This document shows positions 20,801 to 51,203 of a DNA stretch of 64,000 nt, in pieces. A model generated the notes under the pieces. The model had not been told where the DNA came from. It worked only from the letters and a program-made list of their open reading frames with translations, and searched no databases. Position numbers and translations under genes: made by a program. Source of the stretch: Saccharomonospora piscinae (lineage in GTDB: Bacteria > Actinomycetota > Actinomycetes > Mycobacteriales > Pseudonocardiaceae); assembly GCF_005862235.1 (NCBI RefSeq), contig NZ_VCEK01000004.1, positions 372,001 through 436,000 on the forward strand, read 5' to 3'. Numbering within the stretch: the first letter of the stretch is position 1; the number at the start of each line of letters is the position of its first letter.

Positions 20801-21174
20801 GCCAGCCGAAGGACCCGATGAAGGGTTTTCGCGGGGTGCAGGCCGGCACGCTGGTCCTCGAGGCGATCGTGGTCGGGCTCGCGCTTCCGGTCGTGGCACA
20901 GCTCGGCGACGGGTTGAGCAGCGTGCAGGGCTGGACGGTCGGTGGCATCGCCGTCGGCCTGCTGGTGTGCTGTGGTCTGCTGCGGTTCCCGTGGTCGATC
21001 TGGGTGATCCTGGCGCTCAACGCGGCCATGCTCGCGTTCGTGGTCAGCCTGCCGTGGGTGACCGTGATCGGCGTCGTGTTCCTCGCCGTGTGGGGCTGGC
21101 TGATGTGGCTGCGCCGCGACGTCGCGCGGCGCATGGCGGAAGGCCGTCTCCCCAGCCAGCAACAACCCGGGTAG
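20797..21174 (+). CDS. DUF4233 membrane protein
   Basis: 125 aa with four predicted membrane helices (about 14-33, 43-58, 62-80, 84-100) and a basic C-terminal tail. Matches DUF4233, found next to folC throughout actinobacteria; function unknown. ATGA overlap with folC shows translational coupling. Its TAG stop (21172-21174) lies inside the first unit of a 21-bp repeat array. Confidence 0.9.
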   Translation: MSQPKDPMKGFRGVQAGTLVLEAIVVGLALPVVAQLGDGLSSVQGWTVGGIAVGLLVCCGLLRFPWSIWVILALNAAMLAFVVSLPWVTVIGVVFLAVWGWLMWLRRDVARRMAEGRLPSQQQPG

Positions 21175-21254
21175 CCGTGTCCGCAGTCTGTGTAGCCGTG
21201 TCCGCAGTCTGTGTGGTCGTGTCCGCAGACTGTGTAGCCGTGTCCGCACCCGGT
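21171..21254 (+). repeat. 21-bp tandem repeat array A (4 units)
   Basis: Four head-to-tail 21-bp units (21171, 21192, 21213, 21234). Units 1 and 2 are identical, unit 3 differs at three positions, unit 4 at its end. The core is GTAGCCGTGTCCGCAG with five variable bases. The stop codon of the preceding gene is the TAG of unit 1. The same unit occurs near 31.8 kb and 51.1 kb. Confidence 0.95.
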
Positions 21255-21281
21255 GCATGCCCGTCTCGCGGGACAGGTCGT

Positions 21282-21287
21282 TAGGCT
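21282..21287 (+). promoter_or_regulatory. Putative -10 box of ndk
   Basis: TAGGCT, just after repeat array A, would give a leader of about 80 nt before the ndk GTG, which has its own ribosome-binding site. Confidence 0.4.
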
Positions 21288-21375
21288 GCCTGCACCGGCT
21301 CCGTTCGCCGACCACCACTCGCGCGTCGAGCGCGGACCGGTTCCTGAACACGTCATCAGCGAAGGAGTAACGAAC

Positions 21376-21786
21376 GTGAGTGAGCGCACGCTGGTCCTGG
21401 TCAAGCCCGACGGCGTCGAGCGCGGTCTCGTCGGCGAGGTCATCGCCCGCATCGAGCGCAAGGGCCTGACGCTGGCCGCCATGGACCTGCGCACCGTCGA
21501 GCGTTCGGTGGCCGAGGAGCACTACGCCGAGCACAAGGAGAAGCCGTTCTACGGCGACCTGCTGGACTTCATCACCTCGGGCAAGGTCGTGGCCATCGCG
21601 GTGGAGGGCCCTCGCGCCATCGCCGCGTTCCGGCAGCTCGCGGGCGGCACCGATCCGGTCGAGAAGGCCACGCCCGGCACGCTGCGCGGTGACTTCGCGC
21701 TGGAGACCCAGTACAACCTCGTGCACGGTTCCGACTCGCCGGAGTCGGCCGAGCGCGAGCTGAAGCTGTGGTTCCCCGACCTGTGA
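21376..21786 (+). CDS. ndk: Nucleoside diphosphate kinase
   Basis: Cytosolic enzyme transferring the gamma phosphate of ATP to nucleoside diphosphates through a phospho-histidine. 136 aa, normal length. The catalytic His is His117 in YNLVHGSDS; the N-terminal [17 protein letters not shown] and [10 protein letters not shown] segments are typical. The GTG at 21376 has AAGGAG about 8 nt upstream. In M. tuberculosis ndk also lies between folC and rne. Confidence 0.98.
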
Positions 21787-21794
21787 CTCCCACC

Positions 21795-21840
21795 GGCCAC
21801 CGCTGACCGGGCCGAGCCGCGGCCCCGGCCGGCGGTGGCC
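21795..21840 (+). terminator. Hairpin after ndk
   Basis: GGCCACCGC (21795-21803) pairs perfectly with GCGGTGGCC (21832-21840); the GC-rich loop can fold further. No T-run. Confidence 0.5.
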
Positions 21841-21888
21841 GCACAATTCGGTTTATTCCTGTCAGGGGGCTCTGGCAGGGTCTGTCTC

Positions 21889-22821
21889 GTGGCTGACGAC
21901 GAGATGCTGGTTCGGGCGCAGGGGCTGCTCAAGCGCTTCGGCGAGTTCGAGGCGGTACGGGGGATCGATCTCCGGGTCCGCAGGGGAGAGGCGTTCGGCC
22001 TGTTGGGGCCGAACGGGGCGGGCAAGTCCTCCACCATGCGCATGATCGCCTCGACGTCGCCTCGTTCGGGCGGGGAACTCTCGGTGCTCGGCATGGACCC
22101 GGAGCGGGACGGGCCGCGCATCAGGGCGAGGCTCGGTGTGGTGCCACAGCAGGATCTGCTCGATCTCGAACTCACCGTGCGGCAGAACCTCCAGGTCTAC
22201 GGGCGGTACTTCGGGCTGTCCCGGCCCACCGTGCGCGCGAAGGCCACCGAGCTGCTCGACTTCGCGCAGTTGACCGACCGCGCCGACGCCGAGGTGGAGT
22301 CGCTGTCCGGCGGTATGAAGCGCAGACTGGTCATCGCGCGCTCACTCGTGAACGACCCGGAGTTGCTGCTGCTCGACGAGCCCACAACGGGGCTCGATCC
22401 GCAGGCGCGGCATCTGTTGTGGGACAAGCTCTTCCGGCTCAAGTCCGAGGGCGTCACGCTGCTGCTCACGACTCACTACATGGACGAGGCCGAGCAGTTG
22501 TGCGACCGGCTCGTGGTGATCGACAGCGGGCGGATCGTCGCGGAGGGATCGCCCGCCGACCTCATCGCACGCCACTCGACCCGCGAGGTACTGGAGCTTC
22601 GGCTGCCTCCGGGGGAGCAGGAGGCAGCGGCCGTCACGGTCGCCGACCTCGGTGAACGTACCGAGGTCCTGCCCGACCGGGTGCTCGTCTACGCCGACTC
22701 CGGTGAGTCGGCGCTGGAGCAGGCGCACGCACGCGGCGTCCGCCCGGTGTCCAGTCTCGTGCGGCGCAGCACCCTCGAGGACGTGTTCCTCAGGCTGACC
22801 GGCAGGAGCCTGGTCGAATGA
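21889..22821 (+). CDS. ABC transporter ATPase, DrrA/NodI-like drug or lipid exporter
   Basis: 310 aa, one ABC domain plus the C-terminal extension of the daunorubicin-resistance family. Walker A GPNGAGKS at 40-47, signature LSGGMKRR, Walker B LLLLDEPTTGLD, H-loop LLTTHYMDEAEQ. The GTG at 21889 gives the family-typical N-terminus; no clear Shine-Dalgarno is present. It overlaps the following permease (ATGA). With two ABC-2 permeases it forms an export system whose cargo is unknown. Confidence 0.92.
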   Translation: MADDEMLVRAQGLLKRFGEFEAVRGIDLRVRRGEAFGLLGPNGAGKSSTMRMIASTSPRSGGELSVLGMDPERDGPRIRARLGVVPQQDLLDLELTVRQNLQVYGRYFGLSRPTVRAKATELLDFAQLTDRADAEVESLSGGMKRRLVIARSLVNDPELLLLDEPTTGLDPQARHLLWDKLFRLKSEGVTLLLTTHYMDEAEQLCDRLVVIDSGRIVAEGSPADLIARHSTREVLELRLPPGEQEAAAVTVADLGERTEVLPDRVLVYADSGESALEQAHARGVRPVSSLVRRSTLEDVFLRLTGRSLVE

Positions 22822-23651
22822 CGACCACACGAACGCCCGAGCGGGCACGGCACCCGGTGCGCGACGAGGCCCACGCGGTCGGGGCGTGGCGAGGTGCCTG
22901 GCTGCGGGTGGAGGGCCTGTGGACGTGGTACCGCCGGTACTGGACCTCCAATCTGTACTCGTCCGGCCTGCAGCCGCTGCTGTACCTGCTGGCGATGGGG
23001 GTCGGCTTCGGTTCCCAGGTGCAGCGGGCGGCGCTGCCCTACGACGTGACCTACGTGCAGTACGTGGCACCCGCACTGCTGGTGGCCGGTGCTGTGCAGT
23101 TCGGGGTGGGTGAGTCGACCTACCCGGTGCTGTCCGGGTTCAAGTGGGAGAAGAGCTACCTCGCGATCACCGCGACGCCCGTGACGGCGGGCCAGGTCGT
23201 CGGCGGCCACCTGATCTGGGTGGGACTGCGGGTGACGCTGGCGGCGGTGGTGTACGCGGTGGTCGCCGCGTTCTTCGGAGCGTGGACGGGCGCCGGGGTG
23301 CTGGCCGCGGCCGTCGTCGGGATCGGAACCGGCCTGGCGTGCGCGGCTCCGATCACGGCGTTCACCGCCACCACGGACGACGACCAGCGGCTGGCGGCGC
23401 TGTTCCGCTTCGGTGTCATTCCCATGGTGCTGTTCGCCGGGACCTTCTTTCCCGTCGAGCAGATTCCGGTCGCGCTGCGGTGGCTCGCGTGGATCTCCCC
23501 GCTGTGGCACGGCAACGAACTCGCGCGCGGCGTGACGCTCGGTGGGCTCGACCTGCTGCCCGCACTCGGGCATGCGGCGGTGCTGGTGGCGTTGTTCGTC
23601 GTGGGCGGTGTGCTGGCCCGGCACTTCTTCTACCGACGGCTGGTGAGGTAG
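22818..23651 (+). CDS. ABC-2 type exporter permease (DrrB/NodJ-like), first copy
   Basis: 277 aa, six predicted membrane helices, ABC-2 family. Family-typical end segment: FPVEQIPVALRWLAWISPLWHGNELARG. The cytoplasmic N-terminus of about 35 residues precedes WYRRYWTSNLYSSGLQPLLYLLAMG. Coupled to the ATPase by an ATGA overlap and followed after 3 bp by a second permease, so the transporter probably uses a permease heterodimer. Confidence 0.9.
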   Translation: MTTTRTPERARHPVRDEAHAVGAWRGAWLRVEGLWTWYRRYWTSNLYSSGLQPLLYLLAMGVGFGSQVQRAALPYDVTYVQYVAPALLVAGAVQFGVGESTYPVLSGFKWEKSYLAITATPVTAGQVVGGHLIWVGLRVTLAAVVYAVVAAFFGAWTGAGVLAAAVVGIGTGLACAAPITAFTATTDDDQRLAALFRFGVIPMVLFAGTFFPVEQIPVALRWLAWISPLWHGNELARGVTLGGLDLLPALGHAAVLVALFVVGGVLARHFFYRRLVR

Positions 23652-23654
23652 GCG

Positions 23655-24509
23655 ATGGCGATCACCGACAGTGCGACACACCGGCAGAGCACCGTCCCGG
23701 CCCGGCGCCGGAGCGGGGTGTTGCTGCGGGTGCTGCCTCCGTCGCTCTATGCGGGACGGGCCAGTGCCCTCGTCGAACGCTCCGCCCTGGTCTACTCGCG
23801 CGCGTGGCTGGTGTTCGTCTCCGGCGTGTTCGAGCCGCTGTTCTACCTGCTGGCGTTCCGCGTGGGGTTCGGGCAGCTCGTTCCCGAGGTGACGGGACCC
23901 GGTGGCCAGACCCTGAGCTATGTGGCGTTCGTCGCACCGGCGCTGCTGGCGGCCTCGGCGATGAACGGCGCGGTCTTCGACGCCACCTTCGGTGTCTTCT
24001 TCAAGTTCCGCTACGACAAGACTTACGAGACCGCGCTCAGCACACCGTTGGGCCCGCTCGACATCGCTTTGGGCGAGATCGGCTGGGCCGTGCTGCGGGG
24101 CGGCATGTACGCGGTGTCGTTCTTCGGCGTGATGTGGGTGATGGGACTGGTCACCACACCGTGGGCCGTGCTCATCGTCCCGGTCGCGATTCTGGTGGCG
24201 TTCGCGTTCGCCGCGGTGGGCATGGTGTGCGCGACCCTGCTACGCACGCCGTCGCAGTTCGACTACGTGCAGCTCGCGGTGATGCCGCTGTTCTTCTTCT
24301 CGACGACCTTCTACCCACTGTCGGTGTATCCGGAGCCACTGCAGGTCGCCGTCCAGTGCCTGCCGCTCTACCACGGGGTCGAGCTGGCCCGCGGCTTCTC
24401 CGTCGGGGTGCTGGACTGGTCGATGGTCGGCCATGTGGCGTACCTGGTGGTGATGGCCTCGCTCGGCGTGTACGGGGTGGCACGGCGCATCGCCGGGCTG
24501 GTGCGGTGA
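23655..24509 (+). CDS. ABC-2 type exporter permease (DrrB/NodJ-like), second copy
   Basis: 284 aa, six predicted membrane helices. Parallel to the previous permease (VYSRAWLVFVSGVFEPLFYLLAFRVGFG; FYPLSVYPEPLQVAVQCLPLYHGVELARG). The ATG at 23655 lies 3 bp after the first permease. The two permeases and the ATPase together look like lipooligosaccharide or drug exporters; no resistance or biosynthesis genes are next to them. Confidence 0.9.
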   Translation: MAITDSATHRQSTVPARRRSGVLLRVLPPSLYAGRASALVERSALVYSRAWLVFVSGVFEPLFYLLAFRVGFGQLVPEVTGPGGQTLSYVAFVAPALLAASAMNGAVFDATFGVFFKFRYDKTYETALSTPLGPLDIALGEIGWAVLRGGMYAVSFFGVMWVMGLVTTPWAVLIVPVAILVAFAFAAVGMVCATLLRTPSQFDYVQLAVMPLFFFSTTFYPLSVYPEPLQVAVQCLPLYHGVELARGFSVGVLDWSMVGHVAYLVVMASLGVYGVARRIAGLVR

Positions 24510-24536
24510 CACCGTCCGGGCCGCGGACATGATCCC

Positions 24537-24542
24537 TATACT
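24537..24542 (+). promoter_or_regulatory. -10 box, leaderless start of the zinc-ribbon membrane protein
   Basis: TATACT, close to the ideal -10 sequence, ends 6 nt before the ATG at 24549. Confidence 0.5.
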
Positions 24543-24548
24543 GCGTCG

Positions 24549-24803
24549 ATGCTGGCCTCGATCATCGCCGTGTCCGTTCTCGTCGTCCTCGTCGTCGGCG
24601 GCATCGTCCTGGTGGTGAAACTCGACTCGTGGCGGCCCTCCCGTGCCTTCAAGGCCCGCCATCCGCGGCTCTACCCCAAGGACGGTTGTCCCCAGTGCGG
24701 GCGGCGGCGGGTGACCACCGTGGTCTCGGACAACCGCCTCAACGGCATGAACGAGTGCCGGGCCTGCCGGTTCGTGTGGGATCCCGAGCGGTCCCTCCCG
24801 TAG
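24549..24803 (+). CDS. Small membrane-anchored zinc-ribbon protein of unknown function
   Basis: 84 aa. One N-terminal membrane helix (about 3-26, IIAVSVLVVLVVGGIVLVV) is followed by a basic linker and a four-cysteine zinc-ribbon: CPQC and CRAC separated by about 22 residues. The leaderless-type promoter, good codon use and conserved Cys spacing argue for a real gene. The function is not known; it could be a membrane adaptor binding nucleic acid or protein. Confidence 0.75.
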   Translation: MLASIIAVSVLVVLVVGGIVLVVKLDSWRPSRAFKARHPRLYPKDGCPQCGRRRVTTVVSDNRLNGMNECRACRFVWDPERSLP

Positions 24804-25317
24804 CGGGGGTGTCGTAGGTCTCACCGGGCCGGCCGCCGTGCCCGTGCGCGTGTCGCGTGATCGCAGCGCCGCGGCACCGGGTACGAGCAGGTCAGCGACG
24901 GTTTGCCGGATGGCGGGCGGCCCCCGGGGCGGGTTCGTTGCCGAAGGCGAACGAGGACCTGACGCCGGTGTGGGATACTGGGTGTCGGTCGCCGGGCAGG
25001 CGTGGTCACCGACGTGGTGGCGAGGCTGCTCCGGGCGATCCGGCGATGTGCTGGGAGAACCCGCACGCTCGTCGCCGCCGCGCACACCCGGTGTCGGGCG
25101 GCTCGACGACGTGGCGACGCTTTGCAGGGCGTCGGGACTCGATCGGCGTGTCGTCGCGGGACCCGCCACCGACGGCGTGCCGGACACCGGCGCTGTGTCG
25201 CTGCGGTGGCATGACAGGCAAGGATTCCCGTCCCGGTGAGCACCACCGGGGCGGACACAACAGAGAACGGTCCCTGCGCGGCCGCGTGCCGAACGCGCCC
25301 GGGGGCGGAGGAGATGT
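24804..25317 (+). other. Long GC-rich leader region of rne, no gene seen
   Basis: 514 bp without a convincing gene; the open frames here lack ribosome-binding sites and any family resemblance. A -10-like GATACT is at 24974-24979, which would give a leader of about 330 nt. Several GC-rich self-complementary stretches are present. RNase E genes in other bacteria are autoregulated through a long structured leader, so a similar role is possible but not shown. Confidence 0.4.
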
Positions 25318-28300
25318 ATGTCGAACGCGGAGACACCCGCCGAGAACGCTGGCGGGACTACCGCCACACCCGCAGCTCGTGCCCTGGCCGATCTGCCGGA
25401 CAAGACCAGAGTCCACCAGCTCGCCAAGGTGCTCGGCACCAGCAGCAGGGAGGTCCTGGCCACGCTGGCCCAGCTCGGTCACACGGCCCGCAGCCCGCAG
25501 TCGGGTGTGGCGAGGGAGGTGGCACTCCGGGTGGCGGAAACCCTGGGTGCGACGGGCGCCGAGCAGGGCGGGCAACCGCAGGATCCCACGCCTGAGCCCG
25601 CCACCGGCGCGGAGCCCGAGTCACAGCCGGAGCCCGAGAAGTCGGAGCAACCGCCGGGTCAGAAGAAGCGGGCGCGCACCCGCGCGGAGCGGCCCGCCCG
25701 GCCTGCCGACCGCCAGCCTGAGCCGACGCAGGAGGCCGGGTCCGCCGAGCCGGCCGAGTCGCCCGGCGCGGCGCCGGTGTTCGCGGCGCCGTCCCCCCTC
25801 TTCCTGCCGCCGGATCCGGTGACAAAGCCGACCGCGCGCCCCGCCGCCGCGAAGGACGAGGACGGCGCGGGCGCACCCGACCAGGAGGTCGGCACCACCA
25901 CCACCACTAACACCGCCGACGGCGACGCCGGGCAGGACCGGAGCGGCGAGGACGATGACGGGTCCGACGGCGGGCGCCGCCGTCGTCGCCGGGGGCGTCG
26001 TGGCCGCGGCCGGGGCAAGGGCGGGGACGACACCGCCACCGACGAGCAGCAGGGCAAGCAGGCCGAGGCGACCCAGAGCGCGACCCAGAGCGACGAGAAG
26101 GCCGCGCCGGGTGAGGACGACTCGGGCGGGCAGCAGGAGGGTCAGGCCGCGAAGGACACGTCCGAGCAGGGCGGCTCCGGTGACAGCGATTCGGCCAGCA
26201 AGCGCCGCCGTCGCCGCCGTCGCCGCAAGAACGGTGACGAGGACGGGGCCGACAGCACGTCGTCGTCGGACGACCCGCCCAACACCGTGGTGCACGTACG
26301 GGACGGCAAGCAGGCGGACGAGAAGGCAGGCGAGAAGGCAGGCAAGGCCGAGGACGGCGTGCGCAGCGTGCGTGGGTCGACCCGGCTGGAGGCCAAGCGG
26401 CAGCGCCGTCGGGACGGCAGGGAGGCGGGCCGCCGCCGTGCGCCGATCCTGTCCGAGTCCGAGTTCCTGGCGCGCCGCGAGTCGGTCGATCGCACGATGG
26501 TGGTCGCGGAGCGCGGCGATTCCACCCAGATCGGCGTGCTGGAGGACGGCGTGCTGGTCGAGCACTTCGTCACGTCGGCGGGCAGCGGCTCGATCGTCGG
26601 CAACGTCTACCTCGGCCGGGTGCAGAACGTGCTGCCCTCGATGGAGGCCGCGTTCATCGACATCGGCCGTGGTCGCAACGCCGTGCTCTACGCCGGTGAG
26701 GTGGACTGGGACGCCGCCGGGCTGGAGGGCAAGGCGCGCAAGATCGAGCAGGCGCTGTCCACCGGTGACCACGTCCTGGTCCAGGCGACCAAGGACCCGG
26801 TCGGTCACAAGGGCGCGCGGTTGACCACGCAGATCTCGCTGCCCGGTCGATTTCTCGTGTACGTGCCCTCGGGCGGCGCGACCGGCATCTCCCGGAAGCT
26901 GCCCGAGAACGAGCGGCGCAGGCTCAAGGACATCCTCAAGCGCATCGTCCCCTCCGACGCGGGTGTGATCATCCGCACGGCCTCCGAGGGCGTCAGCGAG
27001 GACGAGCTCGACCGGGACGTGCGCAGGCTGAAGGCCCAGTGGGACGTCATCAAGGAGAAGGCCGACTCGGTCGGCAGCAAGAAGTCGGGCGCTCCCGCCC
27101 TGCTGTACGAGGAGCCGGACCTGCTGGTGAAGGTCGTGCGCGACCTGTTCACCGAGGACTTCGGCAAGCTGGAGATCCAGGGCGCCACCGCCTGGGAGAC
27201 GATCCACTCCTACGTCGAGCACGTCGCGCCCGACCTGGTGGATCGCGTGAAGCGCTACGTCGGTCAGGGTGACGTCTTCGCCGACCACCGCATCGACGAG
27301 CAGATGACGAAGGCACTCGATCGCAAGGTGTGGCTGCCCTCGGGCGGGTACCTCGTGATCGACCGCACCGAGGCCATGACGGTCATCGATGTCAACACCG
27401 GCAAGTTCACCGGATCGGGCGGCAATCTGGAGGAGACGGTCACCAGGAACAACCTGGAGTCCGCCGAGGAGATCGTGCGCCAGCTGCGCCTGCGTGACAT
27501 CGGCGGCATCATCGTGATCGACTTCATCGACATGGTGCTGGAGTCGAACCGCGAGCTGGTGCTGCGCAGGCTCACCGAGTGCCTCGGCCGCGACCGGACC
27601 CGCCACCAGGTCGCGGAGGTGACGTCACTGGGGCTGGTGCAGATGACCCGTAAGCGGGTCGGCACGGGGCTGCTGGAGGCGTTCTCCACCACCTGCGAAC
27701 ACTGCAAGGGCCGGGGCGTGCTCGTGTCGAGCGAGCCGCAGCGCGGTCACGGCCAGAACGGCCACGGTGGCCACAATGGCCACGGCGGCGGCGGTCAGGG
27801 CGGTGGCCAAGGCGGCCAGGGCGGCTCCCGGCGTGCGCGGAACAAGGCGAAGGCGGCGGAGCAGGAGGCGGCCAAGGCCGCCGAGGCGCCCGCGCCGACG
27901 CCCGAGCAGCGTGAGTCGGCGGTGTCGGCCGTGCAGGCCGTGGCCAACGCGTCCAAGGTGACGAACAAGGCCACCGACGCGGAGCCGGAGGCTGATCGGC
28001 CGAGCGAGGACACGCCTACCCGGTCGAGGGGACGGCAGCGCGTCACCCGCGAGACGTCCCCACCCGCCAAGCAGCGCAAGCGGGCCGACGCCGCGCCCAC
28101 CGAGAAGCGGGAGGACGCTCCCGCTCCGCCCGCTCCTGCGGCGGAGCCCGCTCCGGCGGAGTCCACTCCTGCCGCTCCGGTTGCCCCCGCCGCTCCGGCC
28201 GAGCCGGCCGCTCCGGCTGCGTCGGCGGTGTCGGCCGAGCCGGCCGAGTCGGCTGCCCCGGTGCCCGCGACGCGGACCGCGACCCGGCGGCCCCGGCGGG

Positions 28301-28818: not shown

Positions 28819-28833
28819 GGAACCTGACCAGCC

Positions 28834-29205: not shown

Positions 29206-30690
29206 ATGGCATCCCGGTTCGTGGATCGCGCGGTGATTCATGTCGCCGCGGGCGACGGGGGCAACGGTTGCGCGTCGGTGCACCGCGAGAAGTTCAAGCC
29301 CCTCGGCGGCCCCGACGGCGGCAACGGCGGGCACGGCGGTGACGTGGTGCTGGTCGTGGATCCCGGGGTCCACACACTGCTGGACTTTCACTTCCGGCCG
29401 CACGCGCGTGGCGGCAGCGGTAAGCAGGGCCAGGGTGGGCACCGCAGCGGCGCGGCAGGGGACACGCTGGAGATGCGCGTTCCCGACGGGACCGTGGTGC
29501 TCACCGAGGACGGCGAGGTGCTGGCCGACCTGATGGGCGCGGGGACGCGGTTCGTGGCCGCACAGGGCGGCCGGGGCGGGCTCGGTAACGCCGCGCTGGC
29601 CTCGCGAGCGCGCAAGGCCCCCGGTTTCGCGTTGCTGGGCGAGCCCGGCGAGGAACGTGACCTGGTACTGGAGCTGCGCTCCGTCGCCGATGTCGGCCTG
29701 CTCGGATTCCCCTCGGCAGGCAAGTCGTCGCTGATCTCGGTGTTGTCGGCGGCCAAACCCAAGATCGCCGACTACCCCTTCACGACGCTGGTGCCCAATC
29801 TGGGTGTGGTCAGCGCGGGCGACCTCGTGTTCACCATGGCCGACGTTCCCGGCCTGATCCCCGGCGCGAGCGAGGGCAAGGGGTTGGGGCTGGACTTCCT
29901 GCGGCACATCGAGCGCTGTGCCGTGCTCGTGCACGTGGTGGACTGTGCGACCTACGAGCCGGGCCGCGATCCCGTGTCGGACATCGACGCGCTGGAGGAC
30001 GAACTGGCCCGGTATACGCCCGCGCTCGGAGGCGAGCTGGCCTCGCGGCCCAGGGTCGTGGTGCTCAACAAGCTGGACGTGCCCGACGCCGCCGAGCTGG
30101 CGGAACTCGTGCGGCCGGACCTCGAAGCGCGAGGCTGGCGGGTGTTCGAGGTGTCCACGGTGGCGCACCGAGGACTGCGGGAGCTGACCTACGCGCTGGG
30201 TGAGATCGTCGAGGCCCACCGTGCCGCCCAGCCGCCGCCCACGCCGGCCAAGGTCGTGGTGACGCCGAAGGCGGTGGACGACGGCGGGTTCACGGTGGAG
30301 GCCGATCCCGACGAGGACGGCGCCTTCGTGGTGCGCGGGCCCAAGCCGGAACGCTGGGTGCGGCAGACGAACTTCGCCAACGACGAGGCCGTCGGTTACC
30401 TCGCCGACCGCCTGCACCGGCTGGGTGTCGAGGAGAAGCTGGCGAAGGCGGGCGCGACGCCGGGGTGCCCGGTCACCATCGGTGGCGTCACCTTCGACTG
30501 GGAGCCCTCCACCCCCGGCGTGGTCGGCACCCTCGCGGGCCGGGGCAGCGATCCCCGGCTGGCGGAGCAGGGCCGGGTGACCGCGGCCGAACGCAAGGAG
30601 GCGCGGCGGCTGCGCCGGGAGGGCACCGGAGACGTCGACGTGTCGGGGGAGCCCGGTGATCCCGGTACGTCCGGGAACGCCGATGAGTGA
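29206..30690 (+). CDS. obgE: GTPase Obg/CgtA
   Basis: 494 aa. The Gly-rich Obg fold (about 1-160), G domain with [11 protein letters not shown] (G1), DVPGLIPGA (G3) and NKLD (G4), and a C-terminal OCT domain (about 340-425) are all visible. It assists 50S assembly and stress signalling. The ATG at 29206 follows AGGAAGG; an upstream in-frame codon at 29167 lies inside the terminator tail. The stop overlaps the proB start. Confidence 0.97.
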
Positions 30691-31792
30691 GGTCCGGCGT
30701 CGCCTCGCCGGGGCGGAGCGGCTCGTCGTCAAGGTGGGATCGTCGGCGCTGACCACGGCGGGAAGCGGACTCGACGTCGAGCGTCTCGACTCGCTGGTGG
30801 ACGCGGTCGTCGGCCGGGTGAGGCGGGGTACGCAGATTGTGCTCGTGTCTTCGGGTGCCATCGGCGCGGGACTTGCCCCGCTGTCGATCAGCGCCCGGCC
30901 CAGGGACCTCGCGACCCAGCAGGCCGCCGCGAGTGTCGGTCAGCTCGCGCTGGCGCACGCGTACGCCGAGTCGTTCGGCCGCTATGCCCTGACGGTGGGA
31001 CAGGTGCTGCTGACCTCCGACGACGTGGTGCGCCGCGCGCACTACCGCAACGCGCAGCGCACGTTCTCGCGGTTGCTGACGCTGGGCGCGGTGCCCGTGG
31101 TGAACGAGAACGACACCGTGGCCACCGAGGAGATCCGGTTCGGCGACAACGATCGGCTCGCGTCGCTGGTGGCCCATCTGATCGGCGCGGAGGGGCTCAT
31201 TCTGCTGTCCGATGTGGACGCGCTGTACGACGGTGATCCCCGCGCGGGCGGGACCCGGCGGATCGCGGAGGTCCGTTCCGAGTCGGACCTGGCGGGCCTG
31301 GCCGTCGGCAGGTCCAGCTCGGGGCTCGGCACGGGCGGGATGATGTCCAAGGTGGCCGCCGCGCGGACCGCGGCGGCGGCGGGCATTCCCGCGCTCATCG
31401 CGTCGGCGGGCGAGGCGCCGTGCGCGCTCGGCGACGCGGCGGTCGGTACCGCGTTCACTCACGCGGCCACCCGGATGTCGGCCCGCCGGTTCTGGCTCGG
31501 GTACGCGGCGGGCTCGCACGGTCGCCTGCATCTGGACGACGGCGCGGTGGCGGCCGTGGTGGGGCGGCGGCGTTCCCTGCTCGCCGCCGGGGTCACCGGC
31601 GTCGACGGCGACTTCCAGGCCGGTGATGTGGTGGACCTGGTCGACCCGTCGCAAGCCGTGGTCGCGCGCGGGGTGGTGGCCTACGACGTCACCGAACTGC
31701 CCGACCTCATCGGCCGCTCGACCCGGGACCTTCCACCCGACCAGCGGCGCGAGGTGGTCCATGCGGACGACCTGGCGCCCCTGCCTCACTGA
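30683..31792 (+). CDS. proB: Glutamate 5-kinase
   Basis: 369 aa. First step of proline synthesis (glutamate plus ATP to glutamyl phosphate). The amino-acid-kinase domain shows [24 protein letters not shown] and [10 protein letters not shown]; a C-terminal PUA domain covers about 275-365. The ATG at 30683 overlaps the end of obgE by 8 bp. The gene for the next enzyme (proA) is not in the window. The stop codon touches repeat array B. Confidence 0.96.
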
Positions 31793-31853
31793 CACCGTGT
31801 CCGCAGCCTGCGTAGCCGTGTCCGCAGGTTCTGTAGCCGTGTCCGCACTTCTC
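31791..31853 (+). repeat. 21-bp tandem repeat array B (3 units)
   Basis: Units at 31791, 31812 and 31833, each containing CCGTGTCCGCA; units 2 and 3 begin with GTAG and a further GTAG follows. The first unit begins within the proB stop codon (31790-31792). Same family as arrays A and C. Confidence 0.93.
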
Positions 31854-41519: not shown

Positions 41520-41532
41520 CGCGAGGTCCTTC

Positions 41533-41663
41533 CTCATCTGTCCCACTGACTGCGGGTCGGAATTGGCACCGATGCCGTCAGCTACCTCGCGGGATCCGAG
41601 ATGACAGGCTGACGCCGGTTGCCGGGGCTTCAACGGGCCGTTCCCTCTGCCCCTCTGGATGAG
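41533..41663 (-). promoter_or_regulatory. SAM-I (S-box) riboswitch controlling thrC
   Basis: Read on the minus strand, the region has the S-box core in order: P1 5' arm CTCATC, CAGAGGGGCAGAGGGAACGG, CCCGTTGAAGCCCCGGCAACC, then GGTGCCAATTCCGACC, and P1 3' arm GATGAG. P1 pairs 41658-41663 with 41533-41538. The 3' arm is followed at once by GGAAGGACC, the thrC ribosome-binding site, so SAM binding should hide it and switch translation off. Confidence 0.92.
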
Positions 41664-41766
41664 CTGTTCAGTTGTGGCCGCCGCAGGCTCGTGCCCCGGC
41701 GTCGATCCGAAGCCTACGACACTCGATCGCCCGCACGCCATGCCCGTGCGGGACAGCTCACCGTGG

Positions 41767-43657: not shown

Positions 43658-43669
43658 GGGGTGCCTCAG
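43654..43669. terminator. Small hairpin between convergent VOC and methyltransferase genes
   Basis: CTGAGG (43654-43659) and CCTCAG (43664-43669), a perfect 6-bp stem with a 4-nt loop spanning both stop codons. Confidence 0.4.
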
Positions 43670-44262
43670 CGTGGCCGGTAGGTGCGCAGTTGTGCGGCGC
43701 GGCTCGCGATCGGCCCCGGTGGGTCCCAGACCCAGGTCTGCGTGTCGGTGAAACCGGCGGCGGCGACCTCTCTGGCCAGGTCGTGGCGGGCGACGGGTAG
43801 CCACCGTTCGTGTGCGGAGAGCACCAGCCGCCCGCCCGGCCGCAGCACCCGGTGCAGCTCGGCGAGTGCGGCGGGCCGGTCCTCCCACAGCTGCAGTGTG
43901 TTGACGCTGAGCACCACGCTGACGCAGGCGTCGGGGAGACCGGTGTCGGTGGCCGTGCCCTCCCGCAGCGCCACGGTGCCCGCCTCGACGGACTCGGCGC
44001 ACCGGCGCGCGCATGCCGCCAGCATGTCCGGCGACGGGTCGAGTCCGATCACGCTCGCGGCCCGGTCGGCCGCGGCGGCGAGCCCGACGCCGGGTCCCGG
44101 GCCGACGACCAGCACGGTCTCGTCGGCGTCGGGCTTGGCGACGGCGACGACGTGGCGTTCGGTGGCGGCGTTGCCGCGGGCCATCACCGCGCCGCCGAGC
44201 CTGCCCAGGCGGCCCCGCGGACGGCCGAAGGTGCGGTCGAGCACGTGTCCGAGAGAACTCAT
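43666..44262 (-). CDS. SAM-dependent methyltransferase, class I
   Basis: 198 aa of the Methyltransf_11 type. Motif [15 protein letters not shown], acidic residue at the end of strand 2 in [10 protein letters not shown], motif post-I region [12 protein letters not shown], then [14 protein letters not shown]. The substrate is not known. Divergent from lepA (114 bp apart) and convergent with the VOC gene. Confidence 0.88.
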
Positions 44263-44375
44263 ACTTCGAGGTCAGCACGAAAGCCCTTGACGCGCATCGG
44301 GGATCACCCCGGGATCGCCCGGGGCGAGCATGGGAACATGGAGGGCACCAGCCGCGAGTGACCCGAGGTAGGCGA

Positions 44376-46247
<1,872 letters not shown>

Positions 46248-46306
46248 GTCGCCGGGTGATGTGGTCCACACCTGTGGGCGCGTCATACCCCGGCCGAGGC
46301 GCTTCG

Positions 46307-46312
46307 TAGGCT
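46307..46312 (+). promoter_or_regulatory. -10 box, leaderless start of nitronate monooxygenase gene
   Basis: TAGGCT ends 6 nt before the ATG at 46319. Confidence 0.5.
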
Positions 46313-46318
46313 GGTGCC

Positions 46319-47371
46319 ATGTTCGAGAGCTTGCGCGTGCCCGTGATCGCCGCGCCCATGGCCGGTGGACCCACCACGCCCGAGCTCGTCGCCGCAGCGG
46401 GCCGGGCGGGAGCCTTCGGTTACCTCGCGGGCGGGTACCTCACCGCCGCGAGCCTGGCCGGGCAGATCGCCGCCGTCCGGGGCCTGTCGAACTCCGCGTT
46501 CGGCGTCAACCTCTTCGTCCCCGGCATCCGTTCCACTGTGGATCTGCGCGGGTACGTCGAGCGCGTGGGCCGGGAGGCCGCGCGCTACGGCACCGAGCCC
46601 GGCGAGCCCCGCTGGGACGACGACGGCTACTCGGCGAAGCTGGACCTGCTGGTCGAGTCCAGGGTTCCCGTCGTCTCGTTCACCTTCGGCCTGCCCGGGG
46701 AGTCCGACGTCGAGCGGCTGCACGAGGTGGGCACGACCGTCGTCGTGACCGTGACCACGCCGGAGGAGGCGCGGGAAGCGGCCGAGGTCGGCGCGGACGC
46801 GCTGTGCGTGCAGGGGTTCGAGGCCGGGGGACACCGCAGTGTGTTCCACGACGATCCCGCGGACCCGTGCGGGGGCGCGAGCTACGGCCTGCTGGCCGCG
46901 CTACGGCTGGTCTCAGCCGTCACCGATCTGCCGCTGGTGGCCGCCGGAGGGCTCGTGGCCGGTGCCGACATCGCGGCCGTGTTGACCGCGGGCGCGGTGG
47001 CCGCCCAGCTCGGGACGGCGTTCCTGCGCGCCGACGAGGCGGGCACCAACGCCACGCAACGGCAGGTACTCGCGGCGGGGGACCGGCCCACCGCCGTCAC
47101 CCGCGCGTTCAGCGGCAGGCCAGCGCGCGGGCTGGTCAACCGGTTCCTGCGCGAGCACTCCGAGCACGCCCCGGCCGCCTACCCGCAGCTGCACCGGCTC
47201 ACCAGGCCGGTGCGGTCGGCGTCGGGTCAGGCCGGAGACCCCGAGGCCATGTCGCTCTGGGCGGGGCAGACCTATCCACTGGCCGGTGCGCTGCCCGCCG
47301 ACGAGATCATCGGCAGGCTGTGGCGCGACGCCCGGGAGGCCGCGCACCGGACGGCACGTCGGTTCGGATGA
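46319..47371 (+). CDS. Nitronate monooxygenase family FMN protein
   Basis: 350 aa TIM barrel of the 2-nitropropane dioxygenase family: VPVIAAPMAGGPTTPELVAAAGRAGAFGYLAGGY, CVQGFEAGGHRS (likely catalytic His), VAAGGLVAGADIAAVLTAGAVAAQLGTAFL. Oxidises toxic nitronates such as propionate 3-nitronate using FMN. Its last 65 bp overlap the 3' end of the convergent hydrolase gene. Confidence 0.9.
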   Translation: MFESLRVPVIAAPMAGGPTTPELVAAAGRAGAFGYLAGGYLTAASLAGQIAAVRGLSNSAFGVNLFVPGIRSTVDLRGYVERVGREAARYGTEPGEPRWDDDGYSAKLDLLVESRVPVVSFTFGLPGESDVERLHEVGTTVVVTVTTPEEAREAAEVGADALCVQGFEAGGHRSVFHDDPADPCGGASYGLLAALRLVSAVTDLPLVAAGGLVAGADIAAVLTAGAVAAQLGTAFLRADEAGTNATQRQVLAAGDRPTAVTRAFSGRPARGLVNRFLREHSEHAPAAYPQLHRLTRPVRSASGQAGDPEAMSLWAGQTYPLAGALPADEIIGRLWRDAREAAHRTARRFG

Positions 47372-48269
47372 GCACGGTGTCCTCGGCGAAGTCGGCGACG
47401 AGCCGCGCGACCGACGCCGGGTCGTCGAGTTGCGGGCAGTGACCCCATTCGGGGCGGTGCAACAGCCTGCTGCCCGGGAGCAGTGCCGACAACCGTGCCC
47501 CTGAGCCGGTTGTCACCAGCCGGTCGCGGCCACACGCCACGACCAGGGCGGGCGTCGTGCAGGCGGGCACGTCGGTGTAGGCGTCGGTGAGTTCGGCGAC
47601 GAGGGAACACGCCGCCAACCACGCGCGCGCCGTGGAATGGTGGTCGGTGAACAGCGCGGTGAAGCGCTCGACGTGGCCGGGCTGGGCGCGCGCCGCGTCC
47701 GCGTACAGCAGGCGGGGCACCAGCGCCGCCGCCACCGCGCGTACCACCGGAGAGGGAACTGGCAGCGGCCACGCCGACCACAGCCGTGCGGGCAGTGCCA
47801 CCCCCGTCGCGGCCCGCACGAGCCACGAGTCGGCGAGCCCGGGGGCCGCGACCGACACCACACCCGCGATCCGGTCGCGGTGCGTGCCGCGCGCCGCCGC
47901 GCGCAGGCTGAGTGTGCCGCCGAGCGAGTTGCCCACCAGCAGCGTGGCGTGCGGTGAGCTCTCCCTGAGGAGTACGGCGTCGAGGAAGTTGTCCAGCTCG
48001 GGCAGTGCCGGTCCTTCGCCGAGAGCCGGAAGATCGACGGCGACGGCGGGTACTCCCGCGCGTGCCAGCTCGCCGAGTACGTCGAACCAGGTGTCGGCGT
48101 TGTCGCAGAAGCCGTGGAGCAGCACGACGCGGGGACCGGCCGGGTCCGCGTCAGGCGGGAGGACCTCGAGGACCCGGGTCGCGACCGTCGTGTAGCGGCG
48201 GTAGGACACCCGGACCTCGGGCACGGCGCGGCGAGCCGGTACCTGTGCCGTTCGCCGCGCCGCGATCAT
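47307..48269 (-). CDS. Alpha/beta-fold hydrolase
   Basis: 320 aa. HG box VVLLHGFCDNADTW, nucleophile elbow VGNSLGGTLSL, Asp in CGRDRLV and His in PEWGHCPQLDDP. Substrate unknown. The ATG at 48269 follows the -10-like TAACCT by 6 nt, a leaderless arrangement. The C-terminal 20 residues overlap the coding end of the convergent nitronate monooxygenase gene and are Arg/Pro-rich. Confidence 0.88.
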   Translation of the reverse strand: MIAARRTAQVPARRAVPEVRVSYRRYTTVATRVLEVLPPDADPAGPRVVLLHGFCDNADTWFDVLGELARAGVPAVAVDLPALGEGPALPELDNFLDAVLLRESSPHATLLVGNSLGGTLSLRAAARGTHRDRIAGVVSVAAPGLADSWLVRAATGVALPARLWSAWPLPVPSPVVRAVAAALVPRLLYADAARAQPGHVERFTALFTDHHSTARAWLAACSLVAELTDAYTDVPACTTPALVVACGRDRLVTTGSGARLSALLPGSRLLHRPEWGHCPQLDDPASVARLVADFAEDTVLIRTDVPSGARPPGRRATACR

Positions 48270-48275
48270 CCGTTC

Positions 48276-48281
48276 AGGTTA
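48276..48281 (-). promoter_or_regulatory. -10 box, leaderless start of the hydrolase gene
   Basis: TAACCT on the minus strand ends 6 nt before the ATG at 48269. Confidence 0.4.
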
Positions 48282-48317
48282 TCCCAGATCGGGTGAATTT
48301 CGAGGCGGTCAGACCGG

Positions 48318-49283
48318 TCACCGGGTGAAGACGATCTTGCCGGCGGTGCGCCCGTCCAGCATGTCGGTGAATCCTCGCGCAGCCTCGGAAAACGGAAGTT
48401 CGGTGCCGACCTGCGGTCGCAGGCCCTTCAGGTCGACGTACGACAACAGGTCGGCCAGCTCGTCGCGGGTGCCCATCGTCGAGCCCGCCACGCGGAGCTG
48501 CAGGAAGAACACGCGCTGGAGATCGGCGCTCGGGTCAGGGCCACTCGTGGAGCCCGAGACCACCACGATCCCGCCCGGTTTCAGCGATTTCAGGGAGTGG
48601 GCCCAGGTCGCCTTCCCCACGGTCTCGAACACGGCGTCGACCCGTTCGGGCAGCCGCGTGCCCGGCTCGAAGGTGGCGTGCGCGCCGAGCCGCTCGGCCA
48701 GCGCGCGCTTCTCCTCGGAGCGGCCCGTCACCCACACCCGGAACCCGGCGGCGCGCCCGAGCTGGACCAGCGCCGTGGAAACGCCCCCGGACGCTCCCTG
48801 CACGAGCATCGTCTGCCCCGGGCGCAGACCGGACTTGACGAACAGCATGCGGTAGGCCGTGAGCCACGCGGTTCCCATCGTGGCCGCCTCCGCGAAGGAC
48901 AGCCCGGGCGGCTTCGGCAGCACGTTGTGAGCGGGCACGACCACGCTGTCCGCGAAGGTGCCCTGCAACTTCTCGGTGAGCAGCGTGCGCTTCGGGTCCA
49001 GGGTGTCGTCCCCTCGCCACGCGGGGTCGTTGATCACCGAGTGCAGCACCACCTCGGAGCCGTCGTCCGTCACCCCGGCCCCGTCACATCCGAGGATCAT
49101 CGGGAACTGGTCGGGCTTGATCCCGACCCCGCGCAGGGTCCAGAGATCGTGCATGTTCAGGCTGGCCGCGCGCACCGAAACCCGCACCCAGCCGTCGGGC
49201 ACCTCGGGATCGGGACGCTCGCCCACGACGAGGGAGGCCAGCGGATCGTCGGCGTTCGGTTCTTTGGCGTAGACGGCGAACAT
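48318..49283 (-). CDS. Zinc-type MDR oxidoreductase (quinone-oxidoreductase-like)
   Basis: 321 aa medium-chain dehydrogenase/reductase. GroES-like part: VRVSVRAASLNMHDLWTLRGV, ILGCDGAGV; Rossmann part: LRPGQTMLVQGASGGVSTALVQLGRAAGF. The structural zinc Cys cluster is absent, as in quinone-reductase-type members. It likely reduces quinones or enals with NADPH. The start at 49283 is 6 nt after the minus-strand -10-like TAGGTT. Confidence 0.9.
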   Translation of the reverse strand: MFAVYAKEPNADDPLASLVVGERPDPEVPDGWVRVSVRAASLNMHDLWTLRGVGIKPDQFPMILGCDGAGVTDDGSEVVLHSVINDPAWRGDDTLDPKRTLLTEKLQGTFADSVVVPAHNVLPKPPGLSFAEAATMGTAWLTAYRMLFVKSGLRPGQTMLVQGASGGVSTALVQLGRAAGFRVWVTGRSEEKRALAERLGAHATFEPGTRLPERVDAVFETVGKATWAHSLKSLKPGGIVVVSGSTSGPDPSADLQRVFFLQLRVAGSTMGTRDELADLLSYVDLKGLRPQVGTELPFSEAARGFTDMLDGRTAGKIVFTR

Positions 49284-49289
49284 GGCGTC

Positions 49290-49308
49290 AACCTACCTGG
49301 CGTACGCT
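49290..49308. promoter_or_regulatory. Divergent leaderless promoters in a 32-bp gap
   Basis: TAGGTT on the minus strand (49290-49295) and TACGCT on the plus strand (49303-49308) lie 6 and 7 nt before the start codons at 49283 (minus) and 49316 (plus). The two -10 boxes are 7 bp apart, so the polymerases must exclude each other. Confidence 0.5.
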
Positions 49309-49315
49309 CGGTCGC

Positions 49316-49546
49316 GTGTTCGACGGAGTGGCCCGCTGGTGGGACGGCGCTGAGCTGTGGCTCGCGCAGCAGTGGTTTCCCGTCCAGTTCGTGCTGGTGA
49401 TCGCCGTGCTCCTGCCGTTGTGCGCCGGGCTGGCCTGGGTGATCCATCGCGGCGTGGACGGTGTGGCCGACCTGCTCGGCCGGTCGCGTCGCGGCGACCG
49501 GACGGCCGCCGGTGGCGAGGGAGGCGATCCCGGTGCTCGCTCGTAG
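49316..49546 (+). CDS. Small single-helix membrane protein
   Basis: 76 aa, family not recognised. An amphipathic Trp-rich start (VARWWDGAELWLAQQWF) leads into a membrane helix (about 22-43, PVQFVLVIAVLLPLCAGLAWVI) and an Arg/Gly-rich tail. It overlaps the next gene by 14 bp and lies just before the secreted-protein/barstar pair, so it may be part of that unit. Confidence 0.65.
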   Translation: MFDGVARWWDGAELWLAQQWFPVQFVLVIAVLLPLCAGLAWVIHRGVDGVADLLGRSRRGDRTAAGGEGGDPGARS

Positions 49547-49817
49547 GCGCATTCGGGTCGCGCTCGTCGTTCTGCTCGTGCTCGCGCTCGTCGGGTGGTT
49601 CGTGCAACAGGCCTTCGGGGTTGGAAATCCGGGCCCCCACAGCGGTAGCCTGCCGGGCGCGGAACGGGAAACCGGGCCGGTGCCGGTGTGCGCCGCCCCG
49701 GGACCCGGCCCGTGGCAGGACGGCTGGACCTTCGGCACGAGGGAGATGGAGTTGCCTCACTCGGCATCCCCCTGCGGGCAGCACATCCCGCAGCACGTCA
49801 CGGCGGTTCTGCCGTGA
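49533..49817 (+). CDS. Small exported protein preceding barstar; possible degenerate ribonuclease
   Basis: 94 aa. N-terminal signal or anchor (RRRIRVALVVLLVLALVGWFV), then a short mature part with two Cys. The stretch DGWTFGTREMELP resembles the DGxxFxNRExxLP segment, with catalytic Glu, of RNase Sa/T1-type ribonucleases. Most of the preceding helix and all the downstream catalytic Arg/His region are missing. A secreted guanyl-specific RNase is the usual partner of barstar, so this could be a decayed toxin; alternatively it is an unrelated small protein. The GTG at 49533 follows GAGGGAGG. Confidence 0.5.
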   Translation: MLARRRIRVALVVLLVLALVGWFVQQAFGVGNPGPHSGSLPGAERETGPVPVCAAPGPGPWQDGWTFGTREMELPHSASPCGQHIPQHVTAVLP

Positions 49818-50188
49818 CCACGGTCAACCCCCGCCTCGACTCGGCGACCGCCGCCGACCAGGCACGGGCGCGGGGCGCCTACCCGCACGTCGTCGACGCG
49901 GCCTCGTGCCCGGATCGGTGCGGCACACTGGACGCGATCGCGTCGGCGCTGTCGCTGCCCGATCACTTCGGTCACAATCTCGACACGCTGTACGACGGGC
50001 TCACCGACCTGTCGTGGCTGCCGCCGGGCGAGCACGTGCTGATCTGGCGGGCCGCCGACGTGCTCAGGCGCAGCGACCCCCGCTCCTACCTCGCCGTACA
50101 CGGGGTGCTCTCCGACGCCCAGCGCGCGCTCACCCCTCGGCGGGGCACCCGGGACGGGCGCAGGTTGACCGTGGTGCTCGCGGACTGA
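49814..50188 (+). CDS. Barstar-family ribonuclease inhibitor
   Basis: 124 aa. Barstar core: AIASALSLPDHFGHNLDTLYDGLTDLSWLPPGEHVLIW, the helix and loop that plug the active site of barnase-like RNases. It protects the cell from a cognate secreted ribonuclease. The GTG at 49814 overlaps the preceding stop (GTGA). No complete ribonuclease gene is adjacent. Confidence 0.88.
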   Translation: MTTVNPRLDSATAADQARARGAYPHVVDAASCPDRCGTLDAIASALSLPDHFGHNLDTLYDGLTDLSWLPPGEHVLIWRAADVLRRSDPRSYLAVHGVLSDAQRALTPRRGTRDGRRLTVVLAD

Positions 50189-50211
50189 CCCACGCCCGGC
50201 AGGCGTTCGGC

Positions 50212-50985
50212 TCAGTCCTTCGGTACCCAGTTCGGCCTGCGTTTCTCGGCGAACGCCGCGATGCCCTCCTGGCCTTCCTCCCCCGCGAAGAACTGCGCCG
50301 ACAGTGACTGCATCGCCTCGAAGGTCTCCGGCATCGTGCGTGCCACCTCGCCCTGGAGCAGTTCCTTCGTGGCCGCGAGCGCGGTCGGGGCCCCGAGGGC
50401 CAGCGCCGTGGTGTAGCGCCGCACGGTGGCGTCCAGCTCCCCGGCGGGAACGGCGGCGTTGAGCAGGCCGATCGCGGCGGCCCTTCGCGCGTCGAACGTC
50501 TCGCCGGTCAGGAACAGTTCGTGCGCCGCCCGCGCGTCCAGCCGGGGCAGTACGGTCACCGAGATCACCGCGGGGACCACGCCGATCCGGACCTCGGTGA
50601 AGGCGAACGTGGCGTCCTCGACGGCCACCGCGATGTCGGTGGCGGCCACCAGCCCGACGCCCCCGGCTCGCGCGGGGCCCGCCAGCTTCGCGACGACGGG
50701 TTTCGGGCTCGTCCAGAGGCGGTGCAGCAGCGCGGGGAAGTCGTTCACGCCCTGCTGCCCGGCTCCGGCGCCCCTGGCTTCCTTGAGGTCCATTCCCGCG
50801 CAGAACACGGGCCCGGTGTGGTCGAGGACGACCACGCGCACGGTGTCGTCGCCGAGGGCCTGGTCCAGCCGCGCGCCGAGTTCCGAGCGCAGCTGGGCCG
50901 ACAGCGCGTTGCGGTTGTGGGGGGAGTCGAGCGTGATGGTCGCGACTCCTGCCGCCGTGGTGTAGTGCACCAGTTCGTCAGCCAT
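50212..50985 (-). CDS. Enoyl-CoA hydratase/isomerase family protein
   Basis: 257 aa crotonase. Oxyanion-hole motifs HNRNALSAQL and FCAGMDLKEARG, then KLAGPARAGGVGLVAATDIAVA and FTEVRIGVVPAVIS. The second catalytic acid position is occupied in the usual region, but the exact reaction (hydratase, isomerase or other) is not readable. C-terminal RRPNWVPKD is typical. The ATG at 50985 is directly followed upstream by an AAGGTT -10-like box and then by repeat array C. Confidence 0.92.
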   Translation of the reverse strand: MADELVHYTTAAGVATITLDSPHNRNALSAQLRSELGARLDQALGDDTVRVVVLDHTGPVFCAGMDLKEARGAGAGQQGVNDFPALLHRLWTSPKPVVAKLAGPARAGGVGLVAATDIAVAVEDATFAFTEVRIGVVPAVISVTVLPRLDARAAHELFLTGETFDARRAAAIGLLNAAVPAGELDATVRRYTTALALGAPTALAATKELLQGEVARTMPETFEAMQSLSAQFFAGEEGQEGIAAFAEKRRPNWVPKD

Positions 50986-50999
50986 GCCCCAACCTTGGC

Positions 51000-51083
51000 A
51001 CAACCGTGTCCGCAGCCCCCGTAGCCGTGTCCGCATCCGGCGTAGCCGTGTCCGCAGGTCACGTAGTGGTGTTCGCAGTTCGG
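51000..51083 (+). repeat. 21-bp tandem repeat array C, forward half (4 units)
   Basis: Units at 51000, 51021, 51042 and 51063. Three carry CCGTGTCCGCA and the fourth is degenerate (TGGTGTTCGCAG). It lies upstream of the enoyl-CoA hydratase gene in the opposite orientation and faces the reverse half of the array across 57 bp. Confidence 0.92.
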
Positions 51084-51140
51084 GGAGATCACGGCCGGAC
51101 GTGTCGGCAGCGATCGACGCAGGCGCCGTGTTCTGACTAC

Positions 51141-51203
51141 GCAGCCTGCGGACACGGCTACGCAGCCTGCGGACACGGCTACCTAGGCTGCGGACACGGC
51201 GGC
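51141..51203 (-). repeat. 21-bp tandem repeat array C, reverse half (3 units)
   Basis: Three units on the minus strand (51203, 51182 and 51161 as their starts). The two inner units are identical; the first contains the TAG stop of the chelatase gene (51183-51185) and codes its last residues VSAA. Together with the forward half it makes an inverted repeat able to form long hairpins. Confidence 0.92.

Follow-up and report, generated by a model that had tools for sequence, protein, structure and literature searches.

Oriented 21-bp repeat arrays at gene ends in Saccharomonospora, candidate boundary elements with lineage-specific cores

Phased arrays in the window and their unit

The window, a 64,000-nt stretch of the 4.9-Mb Saccharomonospora genome G000 (G000:C6:372001-436000), holds arrays of head-to-tail 21-bp repeats in three places, close to genes for a DUF4233 protein, a glutamate 5-kinase, an enoyl-CoA hydratase and a CbiX-type chelatase. 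Their core is called type-1 here, and the CCCGCGAGTYG core of a sister clade type-2. Genes were called with a simple codon-usage gene finder, so that start codons are uncertain and stop codons more reliable. The arrays and the genes beside them are as follows.

20797..21174, plus strand: DUF4233 gene (Pfam PF14017, 2.1e-28)
21171..21254, plus strand: type-1 array A, 4 units of 21 bp (GTAGCCGTGTCCGCAG-N5)
30683..31792, plus strand: proB, glutamate 5-kinase, named from its domains (Pfam AA_kinase 5.1e-42, PUA 3.4e-17)
31791..31853, plus strand: type-1 array B, 3 units
50212..50985, minus strand: enoyl-CoA hydratase gene, its start facing array C-forward (Pfam ECH_1, 1.9e-52)
51000..51083, plus strand: type-1 array C-forward, 4 units, upstream of the minus-strand hydratase gene
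51141..51203, minus strand: type-1 array C-reverse, 3 units
51183..51917, minus strand: CbiX-type chelatase gene (Pfam PF01903, 2.7e-39)

Tandem Repeats Finder gives period 21 at each place, and the 16-mer with ≤3 mismatches matches 14 window sites against a mean of 1.6 and a maximum of 6 in shuffles, confirming the three arrays of a preliminary description of this DNA. The DUF4233 stop TAG (21172-21174) falls within unit 1 of array A, the chelatase stop TAG (51183-51185) lies inside the first unit of array C-reverse, and the proB stop TGA occupies 31790-31792, with the first core of array B, CCGTGTCC, beginning 2 nt downstream. Array C-forward begins at no stop codon; the core of its first unit, at 51004, lies 18 nt upstream of the called hydratase start. 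The description's claim that an array starts at a stop in all three places thus holds for DUF4233, proB and the chelatase and fails for array C-forward.

The arrays belong to a genome-wide repeat family: the 15-base core GTAGCCGTGTCCGCA occurs in 276 exact copies in G000 and its reversed string in none. The claimed exact phasing is borne out. In 800 kb of contig C3 (≤2 mismatches), all 38 pairs of same-strand neighbours less than 300 bp apart are spaced by 21 (35) or 42 (3) bp, while plus-to-minus neighbours there are spaced by 22 (3), 43 (2) or 149 (1) bp and one minus-to-plus pair by 72. As a period control, a pattern with a 20-bp period found no matches in a contig scan. A scan of non-coding runs over lags 10-39 gives 4 runs at lag 21 and none at other lags both in the window and in G003, 2 runs at lag 21 with one each at 12, 24 and 36 in Saccharomonospora viridis (G005), and runs at lag 21 only in G014 (1), G174 (2) and G211 (3); it finds no lag-21 run in G023 (runs at several other lags), G024, G121 or G103 (one at 19).

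Across 110 units from contig C3 and the window the consensus is C-Y-GTGTCCGCA-N3-Y-R-C-G, with G at position 22 in 110/110. The five bases earlier described as variable are not free: positions 17, 18 and 19 are pyrimidine in 82, 98 and 102 units, position 20 is purine in 91 and position 21 is C in 77. The fixed site within the type-1 unit is GTGTCCGCR-N3-YRCG. At plus/minus junctions with a spacing of 22 bp, the terminal sites of the two arrays share the central YR and form the dyad GTGTCCGCR-NCGYRCGN-YGCGGACAC, which was read by eye, uncounted, in G000 and at several loci of Amycolatopsis arida, Prauserella and Qaidamihabitans. A stem within the unit was considered and rejected, C at position 19 in 56/110 units breaking the A15 pair. 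Some G003 arrays alternate GTGTCCGCG and GTGTCCGCA units and thereby acquire a 42-bp higher-order period (G003:C1 ~4271245-4271325 and 4307570-4307670).

Placement at gene ends and turnover between species

Blocks, defined by core pairs 21 or 42 bp apart, were collected from six Saccharomonospora genomes (864 kb of G000, 280 kb each of G003, G005, G009 and G010, and 80 kb of G001), giving 70 in all. A single G001 block sits largely within a called gene, apparently through an error of gene calling, and three G000 blocks extend 17-21 nt over a called end. The arrays are short, most often of 3-4 copies, with 2-4 units in 64/70 blocks and more than 4 in 6/70. Their 5′ edge falls -5 to +10 nt from a same-strand stop in 32/70 blocks, compared with 1.6-3.1% of random intergenic points, and the 3′ edge faces an opposite-strand stop within the same limits in just 5/70, which upholds an intergenic, strand-specific link to stop codons. 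Widening the interval to -25 to +30 nt takes in 44/70 blocks, and for the other 26/70 the described start at a stop codon fails as a family rule. For 89 first units lying -6 to 40 nt from the stop, pooled from Saccharomonospora regions and loci of other genera, the commonest distance is exactly 2 nt (18/89). There is no preference for a particular stop codon (TGA at 37/44 array genes and 1506/1793 overall), and an extension of the arrays into the coding end was rejected, as the 21 nt upstream of the first unit match at 2.40 of 8 positions (n=89) against 2.41 at control stops (n=453).

Among the intergenic regions of five genomes, arrays are borne by 24/1103 tandem, 21/300 convergent and 9/301 divergent regions, and some convergent gene pairs have two arrays, one for each gene, that face each other. 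In tandem regions the gap that remains after subtraction of the array is shorter than 60 nt in 3/24 array-bearing cases, as against 49% of 1079 others; because such short residual gaps are rare, the arrays appear to avoid operon-internal gaps. Blocks facing away from a divergent gene start were considered as a marker of upstream antisense transcription, an idea that was dropped since the class is rarer than expected at random.

Placement outside the six-genome set was examined at 56 named loci, two Bacteroidota loci being excluded; the null here is 2.4-3.5%. Blocks whose 5′ edge falls in the interval of -5 to +10 nt around a stop make up 5/20 in Saccharomonospora sp. NB11 (G004), 7/9 in Prauserella shujinwangii (G031), 11/38 in the metagenome-assembled genome (MAG) DX1.bin91 (9 without context) and 2/4 in Qaidamihabitans albus (G068; 2 mostly in called genes).

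Conservation was followed in stretches of ~80 kb matching the window, from five relatives, and in a second region. The DUF4233 end carries an array in G000, G003, G009 and G010 and the proB end in G000, G003 and G010, with no proB ortholog of G009 in the stretch compared; an array adjoins the orthologous hydratase gene in all 6/6 genomes compared. At the locus of window 50986-51182, G005, G009 and G010 have an extra gene between the forward and reverse arrays (L093 2381-3373 in G005), of the Na_Ca_ex family (Pfam 7.5e-17, G005 copy); it is missing from the interval in G000, G003 and G001, yet both arrays remain. In pair comparisons of conserved gene neighbours, both species have an array in 15 cases, one only in 20 and neither in 1236. 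Arrays are common to species at orthologous gene pairs more often than expected, the pairs not being independent. Most G000 arrays of the second region are without counterpart, gene order there being partly conserved at best. Sharing and the counts of gain and loss together indicate that positions are partly kept and partly turned over.

The linker, 5 nt long in the type-1 lineage, varies by species, reading GTAG in G000, G[TC]AG in S. viridis and mostly G[CT]AC elsewhere. In G000, linker identity is 0.66 between different arrays of its own and 0.25, 0.37 and 0.38 against orthologous arrays, whereas in other species the contrast is weaker or absent (0.49-0.55 within species, 0.27-0.60 between orthologous arrays). 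Unit sequence is therefore homogenised most clearly in G000. A unit start of GT[AG]G is found in 71/116 units of G000, 5/16 of G005, 0/36 of G003 and 0/40 of G010. As such, the earlier observation that the unit supplies the stop is right for DUF4233 and the chelatase and is not a general feature, because the TAG is not conserved in the genus.

A second core and the distribution of both types

The exact two-unit type-1 pattern was found in 6/150 genomes searched, all Saccharomonospora. A sequence-only profile extends the family to 16/180 Pseudonocardiaceae genomes in 8/46 genera, three of the genera by a single match each, and a second profile matches 14/220 genomes in 6/46 genera and, within 396 genomes of the phylum, G000 alone. 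Weak variants are missed in these large sets because they were scored with stricter filters; fuller scoring gives 85 matches in A. arida (G020), 35 in P. shujinwangii, 31 in Q. albus, 5 in G228 and 2 in G211. The G014 array GTGTCCTGCRTTCCCGACGYC (L259 ~977-1117), found by the lag scan alone, retains GTGTCC and TTCCCG at their mutual offset and has GCA replaced; the same genome also has 11 type-2 pairs. Two contigs of ~47% GC labelled Bacteroidota, from a Tannerella MAG (L197) and a Prevotellaceae MAG (L214), contain 21-bp tandem units with GTGTCCGCR, and a whole-genome pattern search finds only 2 unit pairs in each of these genomes, at one place each, a likeness that may reflect convergence or chance.

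Four Saccharomonospora genomes, G006, G007, G008 and G011, give no type-1 profile match and form one group in an unrooted FolC tree (support 100/100). At their DUF4233 end stands a different 21-bp array, with core CCCGCGAGTYG, so that type-1 and type-2 arrays occupy the same site in different species; the G006 array there was located by lag only, and in G007, G008 and G011 the reading frame, followed by eye, enters a TGA inside the first type-2 unit. The two-unit type-2 pattern occurs 117 times in G006, 217 in G007, 109 in G008 and 216 in G011, and in type-1 genomes 0 times in seven of eight and twice in G004. Family-wide it is present in 33/390 genomes and 8/46 genera (133 matches in G174 and 141 in G806), compared with 3 genomes and 6 matches altogether for the reversed control. 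A set of 41 type-2 arrays (3 mostly in called genes), drawn from 30 loci in as many genomes, some of the loci being near-identical, yields 24 same-strand stop distances, 9 of them at -1 to 10 nt. A 160-kb stretch of G007 has 8 type-2 arrays, with stop distances of -12, 1, 13 and 203, and one facing pair in G174 begins at the stops of both convergent genes. At L284 (G801) one run reaches 20 type-2 units, far above the usual 2-4. The core swap at DUF4233 could be due to chance, because just one shared site holds up; the chelatase gene was not found in G007, where the interval contains N runs.

A boundary reading and its alternatives

We favour, tentatively and short of calling it probable, a reading of the arrays as DNA-level boundary elements at the ends of transcription units, each an oriented cluster of a recognition site specific to its lineage. 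In the lineage of the window the site would be CYGTGTCCGCR-N3-YRCG together with a species-specific 5-nt linker, repeated on the same DNA face every 21 bp. The arrays would mark transcription-unit ends, about half of the blocks setting their 5′ edge at the stop of the upstream gene with the sites in sense direction. Cooperative binding of a sequence-specific protein along the phased sites would, depending on direction, stop or insulate transcription after ribosomes leave, or fix supercoiling, and the sites would co-evolve with a factor whose recognition changes between lineages. Judged from sequence, the arrays are probably bound by protein, and a binding platform would fit their orientation, the fixed site and the geometry of the plus/minus junctions. 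Orientation relative to the stop, avoidance of operon gaps, facing arrays, narrow copy number and phasing fit a protein-bound, oriented boundary element; that linkers are species-specific, and that a second, unrelated core is laid out similarly, suggests a change in what the factor recognises. It is more doubtful whether this amounts to a genome-wide gene-end boundary system of Pseudonocardiaceae in which the factor's recognition switches, sister clades using unrelated sequences and doing so at least once at the same gene end.

Several observations weigh against the boundary reading. Arrays are present in just 54/1704 intergenic regions, most gene ends being array-free. Blocks facing away from a divergent gene start make up 20/70, a class that the reading does not account for, although it is below the random 46-56%, and in A. 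arida just 2/15 blocks start -5 to +10 nt from a stop. G001 and G005 have no array at either the DUF4233 or the proB end. In G007 there is no array in 140 nt around the proB end or in 285 nt upstream of the hydratase, the G000 orthologs of two of its array sites, at gene 92 and genes 102/103, are free of type-1 arrays, and its lag scan (N runs ignored) gives as many runs at 18 as at 21, 7 each, along with 1-3 at nine other lags. Linkers fail to separate every species pair, and longer arrays, of ~10 units, occur in G001 and G010.

An unlikely but serious alternative is a selfish or neutral satellite that has spread and been homogenised by slippage, gene conversion or some route of transposition, its units surviving mainly just after stops because they do little harm there. 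Such a history would lead the arrays of a genome to share linkers, as they do most clearly in G000, and would also account for gain and loss between species, the patchy distribution across genera and those arrays of ~10 units. Neutral tolerance explains neither the sense orientation nor the peak at 2 nt after the stop, however, and long arrays are few, some sites are kept in several species, and two unrelated cores share a similar layout.

Somewhat less likely again is an element acting at the RNA level in the 3′ untranslated region, as a platform for protein or small RNA (sRNA), a Rho loading site or a 3′-end stabiliser, with convergent pairs forming very long hairpins. The sense orientation directly after the stop codon and the mostly pyrimidine positions 17-19 speak for it, and six plus/minus clusters fold into long hairpins of -57 to -141 kcal/mol. 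Against this, single-strand blocks hardly exceed shuffles in folding (mean sense z -0.69, -1.24 and -1.25) and single units do not exceed them at all (mean z +0.79, +0.28 and +0.10), no terminator-like hairpin with a T-run, as an intrinsic terminator would have, was found at the window arrays, and 9 divergent regions bear arrays. The sense-strand excess of C over G is small in G000 (0.355 versus 0.333), though clear in G003 (0.398 versus 0.300) and G010 (0.388 versus 0.284). A window scan with Rfam places no family at threshold over the arrays; six sub-threshold matches at the plus/minus array are to microRNA, VA RNA and sRNA models. The window's one match at threshold lies elsewhere, an S-adenosylmethionine (SAM) riboswitch on the minus strand at 41531-41665 (RF00162, 76.3 bits, E 3.9e-16).

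If the boundary reading is true, these actinomycetes would have, at a few per cent of their gene ends, an undescribed element that replaces or supplements hairpin terminators. The presence of unrelated cores in sister clades provides a natural swap in which to study the replacement of a binding code across a genome. Should the arrays be selfish, they would still form a repeat family with a strand-specific placement that the biology of repetitive extragenic palindromic (REP) elements leaves unexplained.

Comparison with known repeat systems

REP elements are described as a GT[A/G]G tag followed by a palindrome, recognised by a REP-associated tyrosine transposase (RAYT) (PMC3686654), and GTAG REPs as lying near gene 3′ ends, where they often provide the TAG stop (PMC3733652). 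The arrays resemble GTAG REPs, their hairpin-forming doublets (REPINs) and bacterial interspersed mosaic elements (BIMEs), as these sources present them, in their many short intergenic copies near 3′ ends, between convergent and tandem genes, in the use of a repeat TAG as stop, in inverted pairs and in the species-specificity of some families (PMC3686654, PMC3733652). The arrays are likewise intergenic and mostly at gene 3′ ends, a location that agrees with REPs and hence is not new in itself. Type-1 units differ in being non-palindromic, head-to-tail at exactly 21 bp and strand-specific at stops; the GT[A/G]G tag is not kept in sister species, and here two unrelated cores share a similar layout. 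Single units fold as poorly as noted above, whereas 8 published REPs have a mean z of -2.93.

Across the genus, the arrays do not follow the presence of Y1_Tnp (PF01797), the only transposase family examined. This domain was not found in the array-rich G005, G010 and G002 (the last a 91%-complete draft) and is present in G000, G003, G004 and G007, the last of which lacks the type-1 core; the two G000 matches, at L051 and L052 (C4, C7), are one full-length and one partial. The suggestion of a mobile or spreading family thus survives in that gain and loss occur and is weakened by this lack of correspondence and by orthologous sharing above expectation. An origin as REP or REPIN elements spread by RAYT is very improbable and was rejected on palindrome, tag and transposase: the tag in G000, the Y1_Tnp domain in that array-rich genome and the gene-end location, TAG stops and inverted pairs known from GTAG REPs (PMC3733652) are outweighed by non-palindromic units, a tag absent from the G003 and G010 units and a RAYT domain missing from three array-rich genomes. 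A clustered regularly interspaced short palindromic repeat (CRISPR) array was also rejected, since the units abut at 21 bp with 5-6 variable, biased bases and no unique spacers.

The TAACTGA direct repeats of Beggiatoaceae, described as dispersed intergenic sets of 2-6 and suspected regulator sites, are alike in being short direct repeats in dispersed intergenic sets; they are 7-mers mostly just upstream of starts, by that account, whereas the arrays described here are phased at 21 bp and downstream of stops (PMC4679880). The Saccharothrix genome paper (PMC3469384) does not mention "repeat". In the open-access literature no report of intergenic tandem repeats of Saccharomonospora or Pseudonocardiaceae was found, none of the matches listed for shorter core strings concerns such repeats, and the 15-base core has no match there, which does not establish its absence from print.

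Eukaryotic rRNA genes carry downstream arrays of terminator-protein sites, the Sal boxes bound by TTF-I. The likeness lies in oriented tandem short sites placed directly 3′ of a transcription unit, with lineage-specific sequence; the differences are that the Sal box system is eukaryotic, serves one gene family and has a known factor, whereas the arrays described here are bacterial and genome-wide, their factor being hypothetical, and the comparison is a functional one only. By this analogy, and with the same doubt as attaches to the family-wide system proposed above, the arrays might play in bacteria the part that oriented terminator-protein arrays play in eukaryotes, and do so with a code that can be switched.

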